From Kluyveromyces lactis (lineage: Eukaryota; Ascomycota; Saccharomycetes; Saccharomycetales; Saccharomycetaceae), in NCBI RefSeq assembly GCF_000002515.2, contig NC_006040.1, positions 620,001 to 684,000 on the forward strand: a stretch of 64,000 nt of DNA. Reading direction: 5' to 3'. Of this stretch, positions 14,965 through 49,094 are shown piece by piece. A model generated the notes under the pieces. The model saw only the letters and a program-made list of their open reading frames with translations, was not told where the DNA came from and ran no database searches. The translations under genes were made by a program, and so were the position numbers. The stretch's first letter is position 1; each line of letters opens with the position of its first letter.

Positions 14965-15165
14965 CTATTGTTGCGCGTTTATGTTAAATCTTTTTTGATT
15001 TATTCTTAAATAGTTGTCGACGTACTTCATAGGATCATTTCTATAGGAATCGTCACTCTTTGACTCTTCAAAAGAGCCACTGAATCCAACTTGGTTGATG
15101 AGCCGAAGAACCTTTGTACCCAAGAGTGAGAAAAAAGAATGTATTATTAGCTTGGTCCACAACCC
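14965..15165 (-). other. unassigned short open frame without ATG
   Basis: About 66 codons, closed upstream by TAA at 15166-15168, with TTG as first possible start and only a late ATG. The peptide has a varied, protein-like composition (SFFSLLGTKVLRLINQVGF, then polar residues). An ATG in another frame 20-30 bp upstream opens a short overlapping peptide (MAKPLRVVDQ...), so a frame change or an exon boundary would be needed. No intron signals are convincing. Could be chance. Confidence 0.15.
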
Positions 15166-15850
15166 TTAGCGGTTTGGCCATCTACTCCCACATTTTTGCT
15201 TTGCCTTTTGCATATGGTTTGTGTATGGATAGAGAACTTAGCTTGGTGGTTTAGAAGTAGGAATTTCGATTCTATGCTTTTTGAACTTACCGGCTTTTTT
15301 CTTGTTTTAACTCCTGCATGAACCGCCTTTTAATTGGCGCGATGATCTTTGCCCAGTTTGTGGACTTCTTCGTGAGGGGACAAACGTATTGGGTGGGTAC
15401 AAATGGCAGTCTGACAAGTTTTCATTTATATATTTCCTAAGTTGTTTCCTTTTGTCAATAGATGCATCTTGCATGCATTCTATGACACTCCATCAAAGGT
15501 TTGATGGACAATTTAGAAAATATATGATACTATTACCGATTTTTAGGGATTAGACTAACTCTCCATTTGAATGTTAAGTGGAAGAAGTAAGTATTCTCAT
15601 AAAATCGACCATTATGTTCGAAAAGTGTTAATAGTAAATATAGAGCAATAATAATAATAGGTCGTAAATAATAGTAAAAACAATGATCATAAAAGTATAT
15701 ACCTGTCATGAGGACAACAATAAGTTTGTTACTTTCTTCATCAGTTTGATTTTTTTTTTGGCAGATGTGAATTCAATATTTGACGCCACAGAGTGTCAAG
15801 TGACAAAATAAGGCAACCGTAGAAAAAGAGCAATTCTTAGGCCGTTCCAA

Positions 15851-17941
15851 TCAGTATTCAAGGCCTTTCACTTGTTGAATAATCCTCAATGCTAGTCTCT
15901 TAGAGTAGTATCTGGATACAGCCAAGTTACCACCCATGTACCAGAAGTTTGGATGGCCAGAGTCTCTCCAAATAGTCTTCAATTCACCTTCTTTGTCCAA
16001 ACCCCAGACAGGGTCCAATCTGTCAGCAACTCTGTCTCCAAACAATCTTCTGGCTGTTTCTTTCATGTTGGTGTAACCAGTAGCCATAACAATAACGTCC
16101 AAACCTTCAAGGATGGTTCCGTCGGTAAATTCCACACCTGTACCGGATGGCAAGAATCTCTTGATACTTTGACCTTGCTTAATCTTAACCTTACCATCAC
16201 AGATCAATTTGGAGCAACCAACATCAATGTAGTAACCAGATCCTTGACGGAAGTACAATCCGAACAAACCAGTACCACCGTAACCGGCATTTGTCTTGAA
16301 ACCACGTCTTTCCAATGCCTTCAATAATTCGACATCGTCTTGACATGATGCACGGTATTGTTGTTGCATAACACCGTTTAACAAAGAAAGTGGCATTGAG
16401 TGGAAAATTCTGTCAGCGGTTTCAGTTAATGGCCCGGTTTCGTCGTAAACACCTCTAATGTTATGGTACATACCATGTTCCACAGTAATGACACAAGTCG
16501 AGGATCTTTGCAACATGGTAACATCAACGTTTTGTTCGTAGAAATCTTGGCAAATATCATGTGCAGAATTACAACCACCAACAACTAATGCCTTCCCACC
16601 ACTGAATTCAGCACCAGATCCATGCTTGGAAGAGTGAACGATTTTCCCCTTGAACAACTCTTGGTCTTGGAACTTAGGCATACGTGGTTCACCGGAATGA
16701 CCAGTGGCCATAACCAAATGATCTGGGGTGTATGTGATAATCTTACCCGTATTGAAATCCTTAACTTGAACTGTCCATTTGTTCGAAACGTCATCAAAAG
16801 TAGCACCGGTAACCATGGAACTACATTTATAGTTCAAATCCATTGTCTTTGCATAACCTTCAAACCAATCACCAATCTTATCTTTTGGAGTGAAAATTGG
16901 CCAAGATGGTGGGAAGTTCAAATATGGCAAATGGTCATACCAGACTGGGTCATGCAAAACCAAAAACTTGTAACGGTTTCTCCAGTTATCACCAATCTTG
17001 GGGTTCATTTCAATGATCAAGGAGTTAACCCCAAACATCTTCAATCTTGCTGCGACAGTTAAACCACCTTGTCCACCACCAACGATCAAGACAGTTGGTT
17101 GATGGTCTTCAGTGAAAGTGGATTCTTTAGCTCTTCTTTCGACCCAAGATTCTCTACCAACGTGTTGACCATGGTTAACACCTTCTGGTCTGTTACCGAA
17201 GATAGCTTCAGGATACTCTTTATAATCTTCCAACCCAGTGTAGAAGGTGAAAGCTTTCAAAGTTGATTTTTGCAATTTCTCATCATAAACAGCGGTCAAT
17301 CTGGCAATACCTTTACCACTACCCAATTTATTTTCAAAAGTGTAATAAACTTGAACCCATTCCACAGGAGGTCTACCTGATTTTGGTTCATGCATCAACA
17401 CCTTACCGTAACCGGAAGTGTATCTATAATCGGCCAATTTATCCAATTGGAAATTGGACAATTTAGCCTTGGACAATAGCGGTTGTAAATCGTTTGACAA
17501 GTTTTCCAAACCGATGAAAGAATGTAAATCAAAAGTGACACCTAAATGATCTCTCCAGGTACCGTGGTTTCCAAACAACCGAGACCAGTCTTCTTCTGAA
17601 ACCGATGTGGAACCGGAATTGATCTTATTCATCAAAACATTGAATTGTTCGAACCATTCGTCAACCAATGGTCCGATCTTGGATTCATCAGCAATCAACT
17701 CTGGAGAAGCAGTAACATTAACACCGTACACTTTCTCTAATGGTAAATCATCGGAAACAGCTTCGTGAAGAATTGGAGGGTAAACTTCCTTATTGTAGAA
17801 ATCTTCCTCGTGTAGTATTTTCTTCATATCCTGGACATTTTCCGCTTCTGGAAAAGTACCTTCAGAAGATTTAGTTTGTTTCAAAGCGTGAGCGACACCG
17901 TCAAGTGTATTATTCAAACCGACAGTCGCGACAGGAGCCAT
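15851..17941 (-). CDS. flavin-containing monooxygenase (YUCCA-like) with N-terminal extra domain
   Basis: 696 residues. The C-terminal two thirds is an FMO: FAD motif GGGQGG at 288-293, FMO-type F-x-G-x3-H (F430, G432, H436), NADPH-binding VVGGCNSAHD 453-462 (a variant glycine motif common in fungal and bacterial members of the subfamily) and a late ATGY motif. The first 280 residues contain no flavin motif; residues 85-245 look like an NTF2/SnoaL-type fold (inference). No signal peptide or membrane segment, so probably cytosolic. Preferred yeast codons throughout suggest strong expression. There is no S. cerevisiae counterpart in this position. The substrate is unknown; NADPH-dependent oxygenation of an amine, sulfur or keto compound is what the family does. 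Confidence 0.85.
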   Translation of the reverse strand: MAPVATVGLNNTLDGVAHALKQTKSSEGTFPEAENVQDMKKILHEEDFYNKEVYPPILHEAVSDDLPLEKVYGVNVTASPELIADESKIGPLVDEWFEQFNVLMNKINSGSTSVSEEDWSRLFGNHGTWRDHLGVTFDLHSFIGLENLSNDLQPLLSKAKLSNFQLDKLADYRYTSGYGKVLMHEPKSGRPPVEWVQVYYTFENKLGSGKGIARLTAVYDEKLQKSTLKAFTFYTGLEDYKEYPEAIFGNRPEGVNHGQHVGRESWVERRAKESTFTEDHQPTVLIVGGGQGGLTVAARLKMFGVNSLIIEMNPKIGDNWRNRYKFLVLHDPVWYDHLPYLNFPPSWPIFTPKDKIGDWFEGYAKTMDLNYKCSSMVTGATFDDVSNKWTVQVKDFNTGKIITYTPDHLVMATGHSGEPRMPKFQDQELFKGKIVHSSKHGSGAEFSGGKALVVGGCNSAHDICQDFYEQNVDVTMLQRSSTCVITVEHGMYHNIRGVYDETGPLTETADRIFHSMPLSLLNGVMQQQYRASCQDDVELLKALERRGFKTNAGYGGTGLFGLYFRQGSGYYIDVGCSKLICDGKVKIKQGQSIKRFLPSGTGVEFTDGTILEGLDVIVMATGYTNMKETARRLFGDRVADRLDPVWGLDKEGELKTIWRDSGHPNFWYMGGNLAVSRYYSKRLALRIIQQVKGLEY

Positions 17942-17995
17942 AATTAATGTGTTTGCGTATACCTTTTTTTTATTTCACCCTAATAAAGGAGTTAT

Positions 17996-18026
17996 TGTTT
18001 GTTTGTTTGTTTGTTTGGTTGGTTGG
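17996..18026. repeat. GTTT/GGTT tetranucleotide repeat
   Basis: About five GTTT units followed by GGTT units, 55-85 bp upstream of the flavin monooxygenase ATG, thus probably in its 5' UTR or core promoter (CAAAC repeats on the transcribed sense). Confidence 0.8.
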
Positions 18027-18241
18027 TAGGGATGTAGATATGATGAATACAATAAATTGGAATGGAGTGAGATGGACAATTGGTTACAGATGAAACCCAT
18101 CTATTTATACAATTTTTTTCTATCAAGACAACATCTTATGTTGGGGTGAAATTCCTCATAATAAATTGCCAAGTCGTGGATTTCAGTTTGTTGAATAAGT
18201 TAATCATTGGAACAGTCAATCGAACTCCATTGAGAAGAGAT

Positions 18242-18266
18242 GGAGTGGGGCTATTAGCCCCACTCC
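18242..18266. repeat. inverted repeat, 12-bp perfect arms
   Basis: GGAGTGGGGCTA at 18242-18253, a single T, then TAGCCCCACTCC at 18255-18266. Perfect arms with a one-base centre. First of four inverted repeats upstream of the flavin monooxygenase. Confidence 0.95.
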
Positions 18267-18304
18267 GTGACATAACAAAGTTCTGAAAAGAAGAAAAGAA
18301 AAAA

Positions 18305-18332
18305 TGTCACTGCAGCTATAGCTGCAGTGACA
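18305..18332. repeat. 28-bp perfect palindrome
   Basis: TGTCACTGCAGCTA at 18305-18318 followed directly by its reverse complement at 18319-18332. No loop. Contains two PstI-like CTGCAG cores. A further CAGTGACA half follows. Confidence 0.95.
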
Positions 18333-18552
18333 GTGACACTAGACAGAAAAAGAAAGCGAGAACTCCGAATATTTGCGGGGGTCAATAGCACAAGATAAGG
18401 TAACCTCGCTTGGAATTGAACAAGAATGTCCAATGTGATGGTCTCTCAATAGCAGCCGTCATAATTAAAAAAACACATTCGAAGAACCAGTTTATCGGAC
18501 TCGGTCACTCAAAAAGAAAAAAAGCTAAAAACTAAAACACAAACCGGTAGTA

Positions 18553-18582
18553 ACAAGATACAGTTTGGAAACTGTATCTTGT
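18553..18582. repeat. inverted repeat, 14-bp perfect arms
   Basis: ACAAGATACAGTTT at 18553-18566, a GG spacer, then the exact reverse complement at 18569-18582. Sequence unrelated to the neighbouring palindromes. Confidence 0.95.
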
Positions 18583-18924
18583 ACCTTAAAACGCAACGAA
18601 AGAGAGTGAAAGTGGGGTAGAAACCTGGTGCTTTGGTGGGTCTTGAAACCAGCCTTACCTTGGACCCAGCCTTACCCTACTCCAAGGCCAGTGCATCACA
18701 TTAGATTAGCAACGGTAGCCGTTTGCCCCTTGCAGAAATGTCTTGACAATGTGAATCATGAAATGACGGTATTTCCCCAGCCCTTCGGACTAAAATAAGC
18801 AGAAGTGGAGGCAAACACTGCGGTGCGTTACCGAAAACGAAGCCTAAAGAGCCGGTCCGCATCGTTGCCTAGGTCTGTGTCCTTTTCCCCACATTGGTTC
18901 TTCTCCGCGTTTTTCTACGTCATA

Positions 18925-18952
18925 TTGGAGGAGCATTCACATACTCCTCCAA
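18925..18952. repeat. inverted repeat, 9-bp perfect arms
   Basis: TTGGAGGAG at 18925-18933 and CTCCTCCAA at 18944-18952 around a 10-base loop. Confidence 0.85.
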
Positions 18953-19178
18953 AAATGAAAATGAAACAAAAAAAAAGCTTAATCAAAGGCATGCAGTAAT
19001 GCGGATCCATAGAGGTGCAGCATGTGGAAAGCGGAAAAAGCAAGTTCCGTGGAAGCTCGTAGCTTCTGCGATGGTGAGAAGGTATAGGGGATAAAGGAAC
19101 TCAAGAAATTTCGGAGTTAGCGTTTTGCTAGCGTTTTGCGTTTTTCTTATCTTTTCCAGTTTTTTTATTATTATTTCT

Positions 19179-19625
19179 TTACTTGACGTTTCTGTCTATA
19201 CATTTCGTTATGTTTTGTAGCATGTTGATTTGATCTGCTCCGTTTAATGTGAATTCTGCCGTTTTCGAAGCAATTTGTACGTAGCATGGTCTATGGTATT
19301 TGAGAACCAAAATGCGGGTAACCTTGTGAATAAGATCGTGGATCTGATGGTCATTACTTTCGATGAGGTCTGCTACGCAGACCTCATTGCTCTTTGGTGT
19401 GCTCTGGACGCGTCCAACAAACTCTATCCCATAGCAGTAACCTTGTAGATACGTTCTTGAGTCCCCACTGGACAAGTCTCCGCAGTTCAAGTATATGGCT
19501 ATGGAGAGCGCAGTTTTGCGGTCCTGTGATACTATCGGGTCCCTATGCGGGCTTGTTGTGCATCGCACGCTCGTTGGCGTACCTTCAAAGCTTGTCCACG
19601 TGTCCTGGAATGTAAGGGTAGTCAT
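19179..19625 (-). CDS. POC4: Poc4, 20S proteasome assembly chaperone
   Basis: 148 residues from the ATG at 19625, exactly the S. cerevisiae Poc4 length as I recall it; an upstream in-frame ATG at 19670 would add 15 basic residues and is less likely. Small alpha/beta protein without membrane segment. With Irc25/Poc3, Poc4 guides assembly of the proteasome alpha ring. Sequence similarity is modest by eye; the call leans on length and on order, because POC4 (YPL144W) sits between RPL33 and KES1 in S. cerevisiae. It is divergent from DFR1 across 257 bp. Confidence 0.8.
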   Translation of the reverse strand: MTTLTFQDTWTSFEGTPTSVRCTTSPHRDPIVSQDRKTALSIAIYLNCGDLSSGDSRTYLQGYCYGIEFVGRVQSTPKSNEVCVADLIESNDHQIHDLIHKVTRILVLKYHRPCYVQIASKTAEFTLNGADQINMLQNITKCIDRNVK

Positions 19626-19882
19626 CTTGAGGAAACGAAACAATCGGAGTGAAAGGCGGGGGAGGGGCACGTCTTTTGTGCCTCTTTACCTCTTTTCTTT
19701 AAGTTCAGCTCCTCTTTCGTAACCTTTACTTTCTTAACTTTCGGTTTTTGATCTAAATTTCAAGATTAACGTTTACAGGTTTTCGTGAACAGAAAAGACG
19801 TGTTGGTGGAAAAGTTGGATCAGACATTGTTGAGAGATCTGTTAAAACTCTTCCCTTTGAGCTTGCCCCAATCAAATACACC

Positions 19883-36576: not shown

Positions 36577-38178
36577 TTTTATTATTAGTGTTTGTGTGTG
36601 TTTTGTATTGGATAACCTATTAAATTTGGCTTGGTTTATGAGGTTCAAATGAATATATTATATTAGGAAAGAAGGAGACTGGAATTAATTTGGAGCAAGA
36701 TGAATCAAGAGTCTGCTTATATACTTTTTGGTTTAGGGTTTTTCGATGGATCAAGTTACAGCAAAAAAAAACTTAGTGTGGGTTTGACCTTGTTTGGACA
36801 ACCAGGTTCCATTCGCAGATAATGATTTCCGAATGTAAAGGACACGCACATACGCAATGACCTCCACGATACCTCGTATGTCCATTTCTGACGTTTCCCT
36901 TGCCATTATCTCATCTAGTGAAAACGTCGCTGCGCTCGCTTTGTTTTTTTTTTTCAAAGCTTAGTTTCCAAAATTAAGGTAGTAATAATAGCAAAAGCAA
37001 TAGCATTACCTCATTGCCAATAGCAAAAATGGTGAAAGACACAAGGCACAAAGTACGGAGTCAAAAGGATGAGGTGGTAAATTCCTAATTCTTTGTAATT
37101 GGGTATGTTGCTATTAGGTAATAGCAAGGGTGTTTTTCGATTTCGAGAAACCTTGATTAACTAATCTGGAGCAATTGTATACGTAATGAATGATGTACCT
37201 TCGAAAACACACTAATACGGCCTGACTTCGTTGCTCGTCGCATCCTCGTATCTTCGATCAACAAAGAACCACAAGGAAGGTTTCTGAGTTTATTGGTGCT
37301 AAGTAGTCTTGCTTTTTCACCAGCCATTACTCGCCCCATTGTTCCGCTGAGGTTAAAATTAGATCGAAAAAAGCTCCTCGACAGATCATCACTGTCTCTC
37401 TCTTCCAACAATAGTAGATCAGTTCATTCCACCCTGGTGAATTGATGACAAGTTTCAGAGGGTATGATAATTATATCAATCATACGACGCAATTCATTTA
37501 TCATCAGCCTTTCTATACATTTCGCGATCTCATTTGCATGCAGATGACATTATCAAATCCGAACAAGATGGAAGTCCGTCTTGAAGGATGAGGAGGCTGC
37601 AAAACTTTGAAAATATTTTGAGCATCAAAGCGCGCATTGCGGTGAACCGAGGTAATGTGACATTCCAATATCTTTTTAGAAAGGATTTATATCTGTCGTG
37701 GGCTGCTTGCAAGTGTCAATTCCTTCTCCACATAATCCCATCTTGAATACACCGACAGGACGGTTGACAATAATAGTAAGTCACGTGTTTTCTAACAATC
37801 ACGTGATCGATTTTTCTCTTAAAGCTTCGGGTTCTCTTCGCATAACGCGTTACCCGCACTATCGGCATTTCATCGTAGCTTCTATCAAATTCCATTTTTT
37901 CTTTCAGCCTGAACATGTCAAGCAGAGGTTTCTCTAGAAAGGAAGCTTCAAAGTTTTTATAACATTGAAATCAGTCATGTCTCTTCTTTGATATAAATAT
38001 ACAAGCTAGCGTTCCACATTGATCAACCCTATTCGACTTACGGTGGCTCTAATCATTAGCTTTGTTTGAAAAAAGTACGCTGCCAGTCGCATTTAGAGAG
38101 AATTCGGACAAGGCGAGATTTAATAGGATCAAATACGTACTAGGGAGTTACAGAAAAAACTCATTTCCCCATATCCAT
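36577..38178. promoter_or_regulatory. divergent HSP12 / MDJ1 regulatory region
   Basis: 1602 bp, the widest divergent region in the window. On the MDJ1 side are E-boxes TCACGTG 37781-37787 and ATCACGTGAT 37798-37807, ACGCGT at 37845-37850 abutting a Reb1 TTACCCG at 37850-37856, and a heat-shock element at 37937-37951. No protein frame looks real. Confidence 0.55.
37937..37951 (+). promoter_or_regulatory. heat-shock element upstream of MDJ1
   Basis: AGAAAGGAAGCTTCA holds three 5-bp-spaced units (GAA 37938, GAA 37943, TTC 37948) including the GAAnnTTC core, 228-242 bp before the MDJ1 ATG. Hsf1 control of MDJ1 is established in S. cerevisiae; use of this site is inferred. Confidence 0.6.
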
Positions 38179-48506: not shown

Positions 48507-49094
48507 TCAATTGGATGCAAGCTCCAGTTGCAAATCGAATGTACCAATCCTTGACGCTTTTCCTTCAATCTTGCCCTCATTAGGGTTTGAATCTATATTG
48601 GACGGAAAACACTTTGATAAACTCCGTTACCCGGAGTAAGGAGATCATTCACACTAACATGAAATTTTTTTTGCCAGTATATAAAATCAGATACATATTT
48701 CTTCGTTTCCACTTATAGGCCTTTCAATGATTAAATACATTAGAACTATTTTAGTTTAACCTTAGTTACTATTTGTTTCCTAAAAGATCAACATCAATAT
48801 TATCGCTCCACGGTTATCCCTGTGTAAGATTTCGTTCTGCGCGGGGACCGGGTTATGTGTTGTTCACTATTTCCTGGTTTTAATAATTTGTGTTGAAGCG
48901 TAGATTTAATACCAAGTACGTTGCTGGGCGCCTGATATTGAGTCAATTTGATTATGATCTATTGGGAATCAGCTGTATCTACATTTTCTCCACTTTAATG
49001 ACCGTAATGTTTATAATTCTTGGTAGTATTTCTTACTTTCGTTTATTTTATTATATTTAGGAACTTCCGTCGCGGTTATGTACAGAGAGCGTTA
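48507..49094. other. convergent AIG1-like / CBK1 intergenic region
   Basis: 588 bp. A Reb1-type TTACCCGG at 48627-48634, flanked by CTCCG and CGGAG, lies 120 bp past the AIG1-like stop, where a roadblock terminator would be useful. No gene. Confidence 0.5.

Follow-up and report, generated by a model that had tools for sequence, protein, structure and literature searches.

A cluster of perfect palindromes between POC4 and a flavin monooxygenase gene of Kluyveromyces lactis, probably left by template switching

On contig C4 of Kluyveromyces lactis, four short palindromes lie in the intergenic stretch between a POC4-like ORF and a flavin monooxygenase-like ORF, and a fifth lies within the POC4 ORF itself. 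This cluster is real and strongly non-random, and its best explanation is that a known mutational process has scarred the stretch several times. We consider it probable that the palindromes were left by short-range template switching during DNA synthesis; chance, as the source of either the repeat class or the cluster, is very unlikely. The repeats themselves, their excess, their clustering, the unrelatedness of their arms and their occurrence in conserved codons are observed, whereas the mechanism, the youth of the arms and the reason why this stretch was affected are inferred. Unless a contig is named, positions are those of the window, the whole stretch of 64 kb that was analysed (C4:620001-684000).

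Four intergenic palindromes and one inside the POC4 ORF

The features of the locus are as follows (fold energies are predictions for single-stranded DNA).

15851..17941, minus strand: flavin monooxygenase-like ORF, 696 amino acids, downstream of the cluster; Pfam PF00743 and PF13738
18100..18109, minus strand: TATA-like sequence TATAAATAGA, read from the sequence
18242..18266: palindrome 1, perfect 12-bp arms, 1-base spacer; -12.8 kcal/mol
18267-18272: GTGACA, directly behind palindrome 1
18305..18332: palindrome 2, 28 bp, perfect 14-bp arms, no spacer; -13.7 kcal/mol
next to palindrome 2, following it on the minus strand: TTTTTTCTTT
18327..18338, plus strand: GTGACA-GTGACA, the last 6 bp of palindrome 2 directly duplicated behind it
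18553..18582: palindrome 3, perfect 14-bp arms, 2-base spacer GG; -11.2 kcal/mol
18925..18952: palindrome 4, 12-bp arm, one mismatch, 4-base spacer; -7.9 kcal/mol
19179..19625, minus strand: POC4-like proteasome chaperone ORF, 148 amino acids; Pfam PF10448, E 3.2e-37
19363..19387: palindrome 5, perfect 11-bp arms, 3-base spacer, inside the POC4 ORF, encoding NEVCVADLI

The four inverted repeats of the preliminary description (18242-18266, 18305-18332, 18553-18582 and 18925-18952) were all confirmed at their positions. The last of them had been written as perfect 9-bp arms around a 10-base loop; this form is equivalent and correct, but the repeat is better described by arms of 12 bp that differ at one position, a C against a T, around a 4-base spacer. 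Palindrome 5, in POC4, is a fifth repeat absent from that list. Summed over the five, the arms contain 63 pairs and a single mismatch, and a duplication at the edge is found in one repeat only (GTGACA, palindrome 2). The four intergenic sequences had been called unrelated, and indeed the repeat finder joins none of them to another. A repeated element was considered and rejected, as 18200-19000, searched as DNA against the own genome, returned no further copies (very common words were skipped, and absence is not proven); two palindromes matched only themselves, on the opposite strand. A single shared transcription-factor site was not supported either, the arms having no common motif. No tRNA or known RNA gene was found at the cluster locus, and no Rfam family matched 17942-19178 at E values up to 1.

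The TATA-like sequence is likely the core promoter of the monooxygenase gene. Palindromes 1 to 3 lie 133-473 bp upstream of it and, from the coordinates, 301-641 bp upstream of the monooxygenase ATG; counted from the other side, they lie 597-937 bp past the POC4 stop codon, palindrome 2 at about 850 bp. Codon bias, scored with S. cerevisiae optimal codons, is strong in the monooxygenase ORF (rank 12 of 180 sample ORFs) and not strong in POC4 (rank 139 of 180). A monooxygenase paralogue with an alignable promoter was sought and discarded, the second match being only distant (27% over residues 286-465).

Perfect palindromes with tiny spacers are in excess

Repeats were counted in a 354-kb sample made up of the 64-kb window, 100 kb on each side of it and 50, 20 and 20 kb from three other contigs. 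The class comprised perfect repeats with arms of at least 11 bp and spacers of 0-5 bases, low-complexity arms being dropped; four AT-repeat rows at spacers 0-5 (a single tract supplying three) and one low-complexity row at spacers 6-60 were removed before the count. Ten such repeats were seen against 0.75 in Markov-3 shuffles, and a second expectation, scaled from spacers 6-45 to the six spacer sizes, also amounted to 0.75. Twenty Markov-3 shuffles of the 264 kb surrounding the locus produced at most 0.05 repeats per shuffle in each cell of arm 12 or 13 with spacer 0 or 1, and none at all with arms of at least 14 bp and spacers 0-2. The excess of perfect arms is confined to tiny spacers: ten repeats occur at the six sizes 0-5 as against eight over the 55 sizes 6-60, and seven of the ten have spacers of 2 bases or less. 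Repeats whose arms measure exactly 8 or 9 bp occur at nearly the same frequency per spacer size in the ranges 0-5 and 6-60.

Stems with mismatches showed no clear excess in the same 354 kb, with eight one-mismatch stems (at least 11 pairs) against about 5.5 expected, and 26 two-mismatch stems against 17-21. An excess in perfect stems and not clearly in mismatched ones is the pattern of young or renewed arms. Three of the 26 two-mismatch stems fall in about 0.5 kb of the monooxygenase ORF beside the cluster (window 17159-17673), each near chance level.

The ten repeats are distributed over both kinds of sequence, six being intergenic and four in ORFs. In the 180 predicted ORFs, compared with 40 synonymous-codon shuffles, four repeats with arms of at least 11 bp were seen (shuffle mean 0.75, maximum 3), eight with arms of at least 10 bp (2.3 expected) and 31 with arms of at least 8 bp (18.75 expected). 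Perfect inverted repeats are generally enriched across 118,019 genomes, zero spacers being the commonest in eukaryotes (PMC13155455). This general enrichment indicates that the palindrome class is not peculiar to K. lactis.

Four of the ten repeats fall within 1,146 bp

The interval 18242-19387 (1,146 bp) holds four of the ten sample repeats. At the rate outside it (six in 352.9 kb), the probability of at least four in such a length is 5.9e-9, or about 5.5e-5 once all such windows of the genome are counted, and that of the three repeats in 341 bp of intergenic DNA is 1.3e-7; all these values are to be taken as orders of magnitude, as they are after-the-fact and come from a small sample and a window chosen for its cluster. 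Together with the ten repeats seen against 0.75 in 354 kb, they bear out the preliminary view that palindromes this close together are unlikely by chance. A comparison set beforehand, namely whether most intergenic regions have an equal density, gave the same answer: among 169 inter-ORF gaps of the 354-kb sample (at least 30 bp, between predicted ORFs), 165 hold none, three hold one and this gap holds three. The general background is also in excess, however, with six repeats outside the cluster against 0.75 for the whole sample, so that the cluster is a peak on this background. Since this background of six in 352.9 kb is real, the cluster could be a chance grouping on an ordinary genome-wide level of template switching, with nothing special about the locus. 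Against this stand the three probabilities above, after-the-fact and from a small sample as they are, and we hold such a grouping to be highly improbable.

A weaker second cluster was noticed at C4:614450-618286 (L014:4450-8286), where two perfect 10-bp hairpins and a one-mismatch 12-bp stem lie within 0.6 kb. The ORF concerned encodes 1278 amino acids and has no Pfam match, and one of the hairpins has an AGAA loop.

Coding palindromes on largely conserved peptides

Palindrome 5 was compared in an alignment of all four POC4 matches, of which P0001 is the same protein and P0002 (K. dobzhanskii), P0003 and P0004 are others. Each of these three shares the residues EVC, then V or I, then ADLIE. 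In the palindrome, GAG is paired with CTC, a rare leucine codon (5.5 per 1000), and the probability that NEVCVADLI forms the palindrome by draws from codon use is 7e-5. In the GAC1/PIG1-like gene, the palindrome at C4:778049 encodes TLTLHSNVSD, which is identical in K. dobzhanskii, differs by one or two residues in P0007 and P0008, and is absent in the two more distant of the six rows aligned (six of 46 matches; P0005 is K. lactis itself, and P0011 and P0012 are without the N-terminal stretch). In SEC8 (six of 17 matches; P0051 is the same protein, and P0052 and P0054 begin behind the hairpin), the first arm of the palindrome at C5:1005642 encodes ALSIR, which is identical in K. marxianus and has ALSV as its counterpart in two rows of greater distance; the residues under the other arm, NRQR, are variable. 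In SEC8, it looks as if the conserved arm had templated the variable one. For the most part, the three coding palindromes compared thus appear to occupy old protein sequence, as would be expected if one arm is overwritten by a switch and harmful outcomes are lost.

Coding palindromes with short spacers and arms of at least 10 bp crowd the 5′ ends of ORFs, five of the eight centres being within 130 nt of the ATG. The nominal binomial probability is 4e-4, compared with none of 13 at spacers 6-60 (354 kb, 180 ORFs; the test is after-the-fact and the starts are mechanical).

Template switching as the best supported explanation

In the mechanism that we favour, DNA polymerase would stall, and the growing strand would fold back on itself or jump to the opposite strand. 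Some 11-14 bases would then be copied from the just-made sequence or its neighbour before synthesis returned to its place, so that an imperfect inverted repeat would become a perfect one or a new arm would be made in a single step. Switching would act in coding and non-coding DNA alike, only harmless changes surviving within genes. The stretch 18242-19387 would have been struck repeatedly, or in one multi-switch event, and recently, as the single mismatch among its arm pairs suggests.

Among the readings put forward in the preliminary description, template switching is the best supported, by the excess of perfect arms, by the unrelatedness of these arms and by their occurrence in coding and non-coding DNA. 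The perfect, close inverted copies that it should leave are present beyond chance (10 against 0.75 in 354 kb), and they are independent of coding status (4 of 10 in ORFs, 6 of 10 intergenic). Unrelated sequences, a spread over genes and intergenic DNA, and a largely conserved peptide are better accounted for by a mutational process than by regulation. The four intergenic repeats of the cluster have one mismatch in 52 pairs (104 bases), a divergence of about 1% with a 95% interval of 0.02-5.4%. Strains of K. lactis differ by a pi of 2.8%, and the two groups furthest apart by more than 8.5% (PMC9897184). The divergence of the arms is thus within the diversity of the species, and strain genomes may show pre-event states.

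Several observations complicate the explanation by template switching. Steady making of arms with free decay should leave one-mismatch stems with an excess similar to that of perfect stems. Such an excess is not seen, which points to a recent origin, a quick loss or a repair of the arms; the weak one-mismatch excess does not fit steady creation with free decay and counts against template switching. So does the consideration that selection for arm identity would yield perfect arms too. Simple fold-back priming needs about 3 unpaired bases; with seven of the ten spacers at 2 bases or less, an interstrand switch or quasi-palindrome correction must be assumed. The GTGACA duplicate behind palindrome 2 resembles a palindrome extension with duplication, a likeness that is suggestive only, and GTGACA also follows palindrome 1; that no more than one of the five repeats has such a duplication at its edge speaks against the explanation.

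Two related processes were examined and set aside. A general slippage hotspot was not apparent, since adjacent direct repeats are not clearly concentrated here (one of 14 intergenic cases lies in this gap, about 0.16 being expected by length). Distant templated insertion of the MMBIR type was not supported: inverted 12-mer matches more than 60 bp away amount to 0 per kb against a median of 1.15 (49 gaps, within 5 kb), and direct 12-mer matches within 5 kb of the cluster gap show no excess (1.6 per kb against a median of 1.24).

Quasi-palindrome mutations have been reported in highly transcribed yeast DNA (PMC3820800), and the codon bias of the monooxygenase gene is compatible with a transcription-linked process of this kind. 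POC4 is not strongly codon-biased, so that the link to transcription is carried by the monooxygenase gene only. We tentatively propose, as a possibility still in doubt, that the promoter and the gene behind it form a palindrome-forming hotspot in which template switching recurs or struck several times at once, new palindromes favouring the 5′ ends of genes, perhaps through strong transcription.

Less likely alternatives: regulatory DNA, RNA structure and transposase footprints

Palindromes 1 to 3 could instead be bound by dimeric transcription factors that act on the monooxygenase gene, their arms being kept perfect by selection. Their position at 301-641 bp before the ATG is the place of a yeast upstream activating region, and the sample repeat at C4:771746 carries two CACGTG boxes, so some members of the class may bind proteins. 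However, with unrelated arms more than one factor would have to be involved; the cluster includes a coding repeat, and four of the ten in the class are in ORFs; and usual half-sites are shorter than 12-14 bp, so that arms of this length with spacers 0-2 exceed them. We consider this explanation unlikely. The hairpin-capped breaks of a hAT-type transposase offer a different origin, in which opened ends would leave short palindromic additions as footprints. K. lactis possesses such an enzyme, Kat1, whose hairpin-capped breaks lead to MAT switching (PMC4763223), and the opening of a hairpin end would be expected to leave a spacer close to zero. The flanks of 8 bp, the length of a hAT target duplication, nevertheless differ on the two sides in all five repeats, no end sequence is common to them, and palindromic additions from opened hairpins are usually shorter than 12-14 bp. 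An origin from transposase footprints therefore appears extremely improbable.

It could also be supposed that the repeats act as hairpins in transcripts across the stretch and govern processing, stability or the end of transcription. All five are predicted to fold well as single-stranded DNA (-7.9 to -13.7 kcal/mol), and 17942-19640 contains four terminator-like sites where shuffles give 1.4 (sd 1.2); palindromes 1, 2 and 5 account for three of the four. The combination of a G+C-rich stem and a T-run is found at palindrome 2, on the minus strand, where TTTTTTCTTT stands behind the stem; it is weak at palindromes 1 and 5 and missing at 3 and 4. The capacity to form hairpins, as proposed in the preliminary description, is thus predicted, but their use is not, since folding follows from the arms. 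The proposed structured leader fares worse: the TATA-like sequence lies between the monooxygenase gene and palindromes 1 to 3, which places them upstream of its presumed transcript and makes a leader RNA unlikely. As for a terminator, the T-run at palindrome 2 and the number of sites speak for it, whereas the distance of about 850 bp from the POC4 stop and the weak tails of the other repeats speak against it. Any palindrome that contains G+C and adjoins a T-run would score as terminator-like, and Pol II is not known to stop at stem-plus-T signals; palindrome 2 may have a role in read-through from POC4. A stem closed by an AGNN tetraloop is the substrate motif of the RNase III Rnt1 (PMC5934358), and hairpins with an AGGT tetraloop of this type, as in yeast Rnt1 substrates, occur twice elsewhere in the window (15489-15508 and 37108-37127). 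None of the predicted structures of the five cluster repeats has such a loop. With one repeat coding, no Rfam match over 17942-19178 at E up to 1 and palindromes 1 to 3 placed before the presumed downstream promoter and 597-937 bp beyond the POC4 stop, an RNA role of the cluster palindromes is unlikely, and we rate a control of transcripts by such hairpins across the stretch as quite improbable.

The two AGGT hairpins are of interest in themselves. The region 15016-15508 of the window contains a U3 snoRNA gene (Rfam RF01846; 404 bases compared with a model of 274 positions, probably with an intron), and the hairpin at 15489-15508, 70 bases downstream of this gene, looks like an Rnt1 processing site; U3 is processed by Rnt1 at its 3′ side. 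The second perfect AGGT hairpin, at 37108-37127, lies in a 1.6-kb inter-ORF stretch and is possibly an unannotated RNA processing signal; no Rfam family scored above the gathering score in this stretch. An H/ACA snoRNA gene, snR32, was found at window 48790-48986 (Rfam RF01247). The palindrome with the two CACGTG boxes, C4:771746-771772 (L012), is intergenic with 13-bp arms; here template switching may have turned one transcription-factor site into two.

Meaning of the cluster and comparison with known systems

Template switching is a known process, documented in S. cerevisiae; so many of its marks in one place are unusual. It is hard to see, as every event wipes out the traces of what preceded it. 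With several scars of fresh appearance in a highly diverse species, the rate of switching, its polarity and its link with transcription could be read from existing strain genomes. They also give a warning that a perfect palindrome in a promoter is not necessarily a regulatory site. The matches listed included no paper on clusters of nuclear palindromes in K. lactis, the subscription literature being thinly covered and novelty not proven.

The closest parallel is found in a rad27-deletion strain of S. cerevisiae, in which perfect 16-bp arms with a 1-bp spacer arose from an imperfect repeat by template switching (PMC5677150); the arm length is similar to that seen here. The same study describes a palindrome extension with a short duplication, like the GTGACA behind palindrome 2. 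The parental sequence was known there, whereas the K. lactis palindromes are read from the present sequence alone, and four to five palindromes within 1.1 kb, as in K. lactis, are absent from the consulted parts of that paper. In genes of S. cerevisiae, perfect repeats with arms of 7-16 bp have been created in coding DNA, in a manner akin to the coding repeats described here, and an 11-bp arm arose in UTP5 of a wild-type strain (PMC8604942). In that study most of the events changed amino acids (28 of 30 genes), unlike the POC4 and GAC1/PIG1 cases of K. lactis, in which a single V/I exchange is all that separates the peptides from their K. dobzhanskii counterparts.

Work on the template-switch origin of RNA hairpins shares with our reading that one event can make a perfect stem (PMC8794818). 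That work follows RNA genes, whereas nothing at the K. lactis cluster clearly indicates an RNA gene. Finally, the mitochondria of hairworms contain many perfect coding inverted repeats for which template switching is a possible cause (PMC6649704). The coding repeats of K. lactis are similar to these, but the hairworm repeats are mitochondrial and reach 284 bp, whereas those of K. lactis are nuclear, with arms of 11-14 bp.
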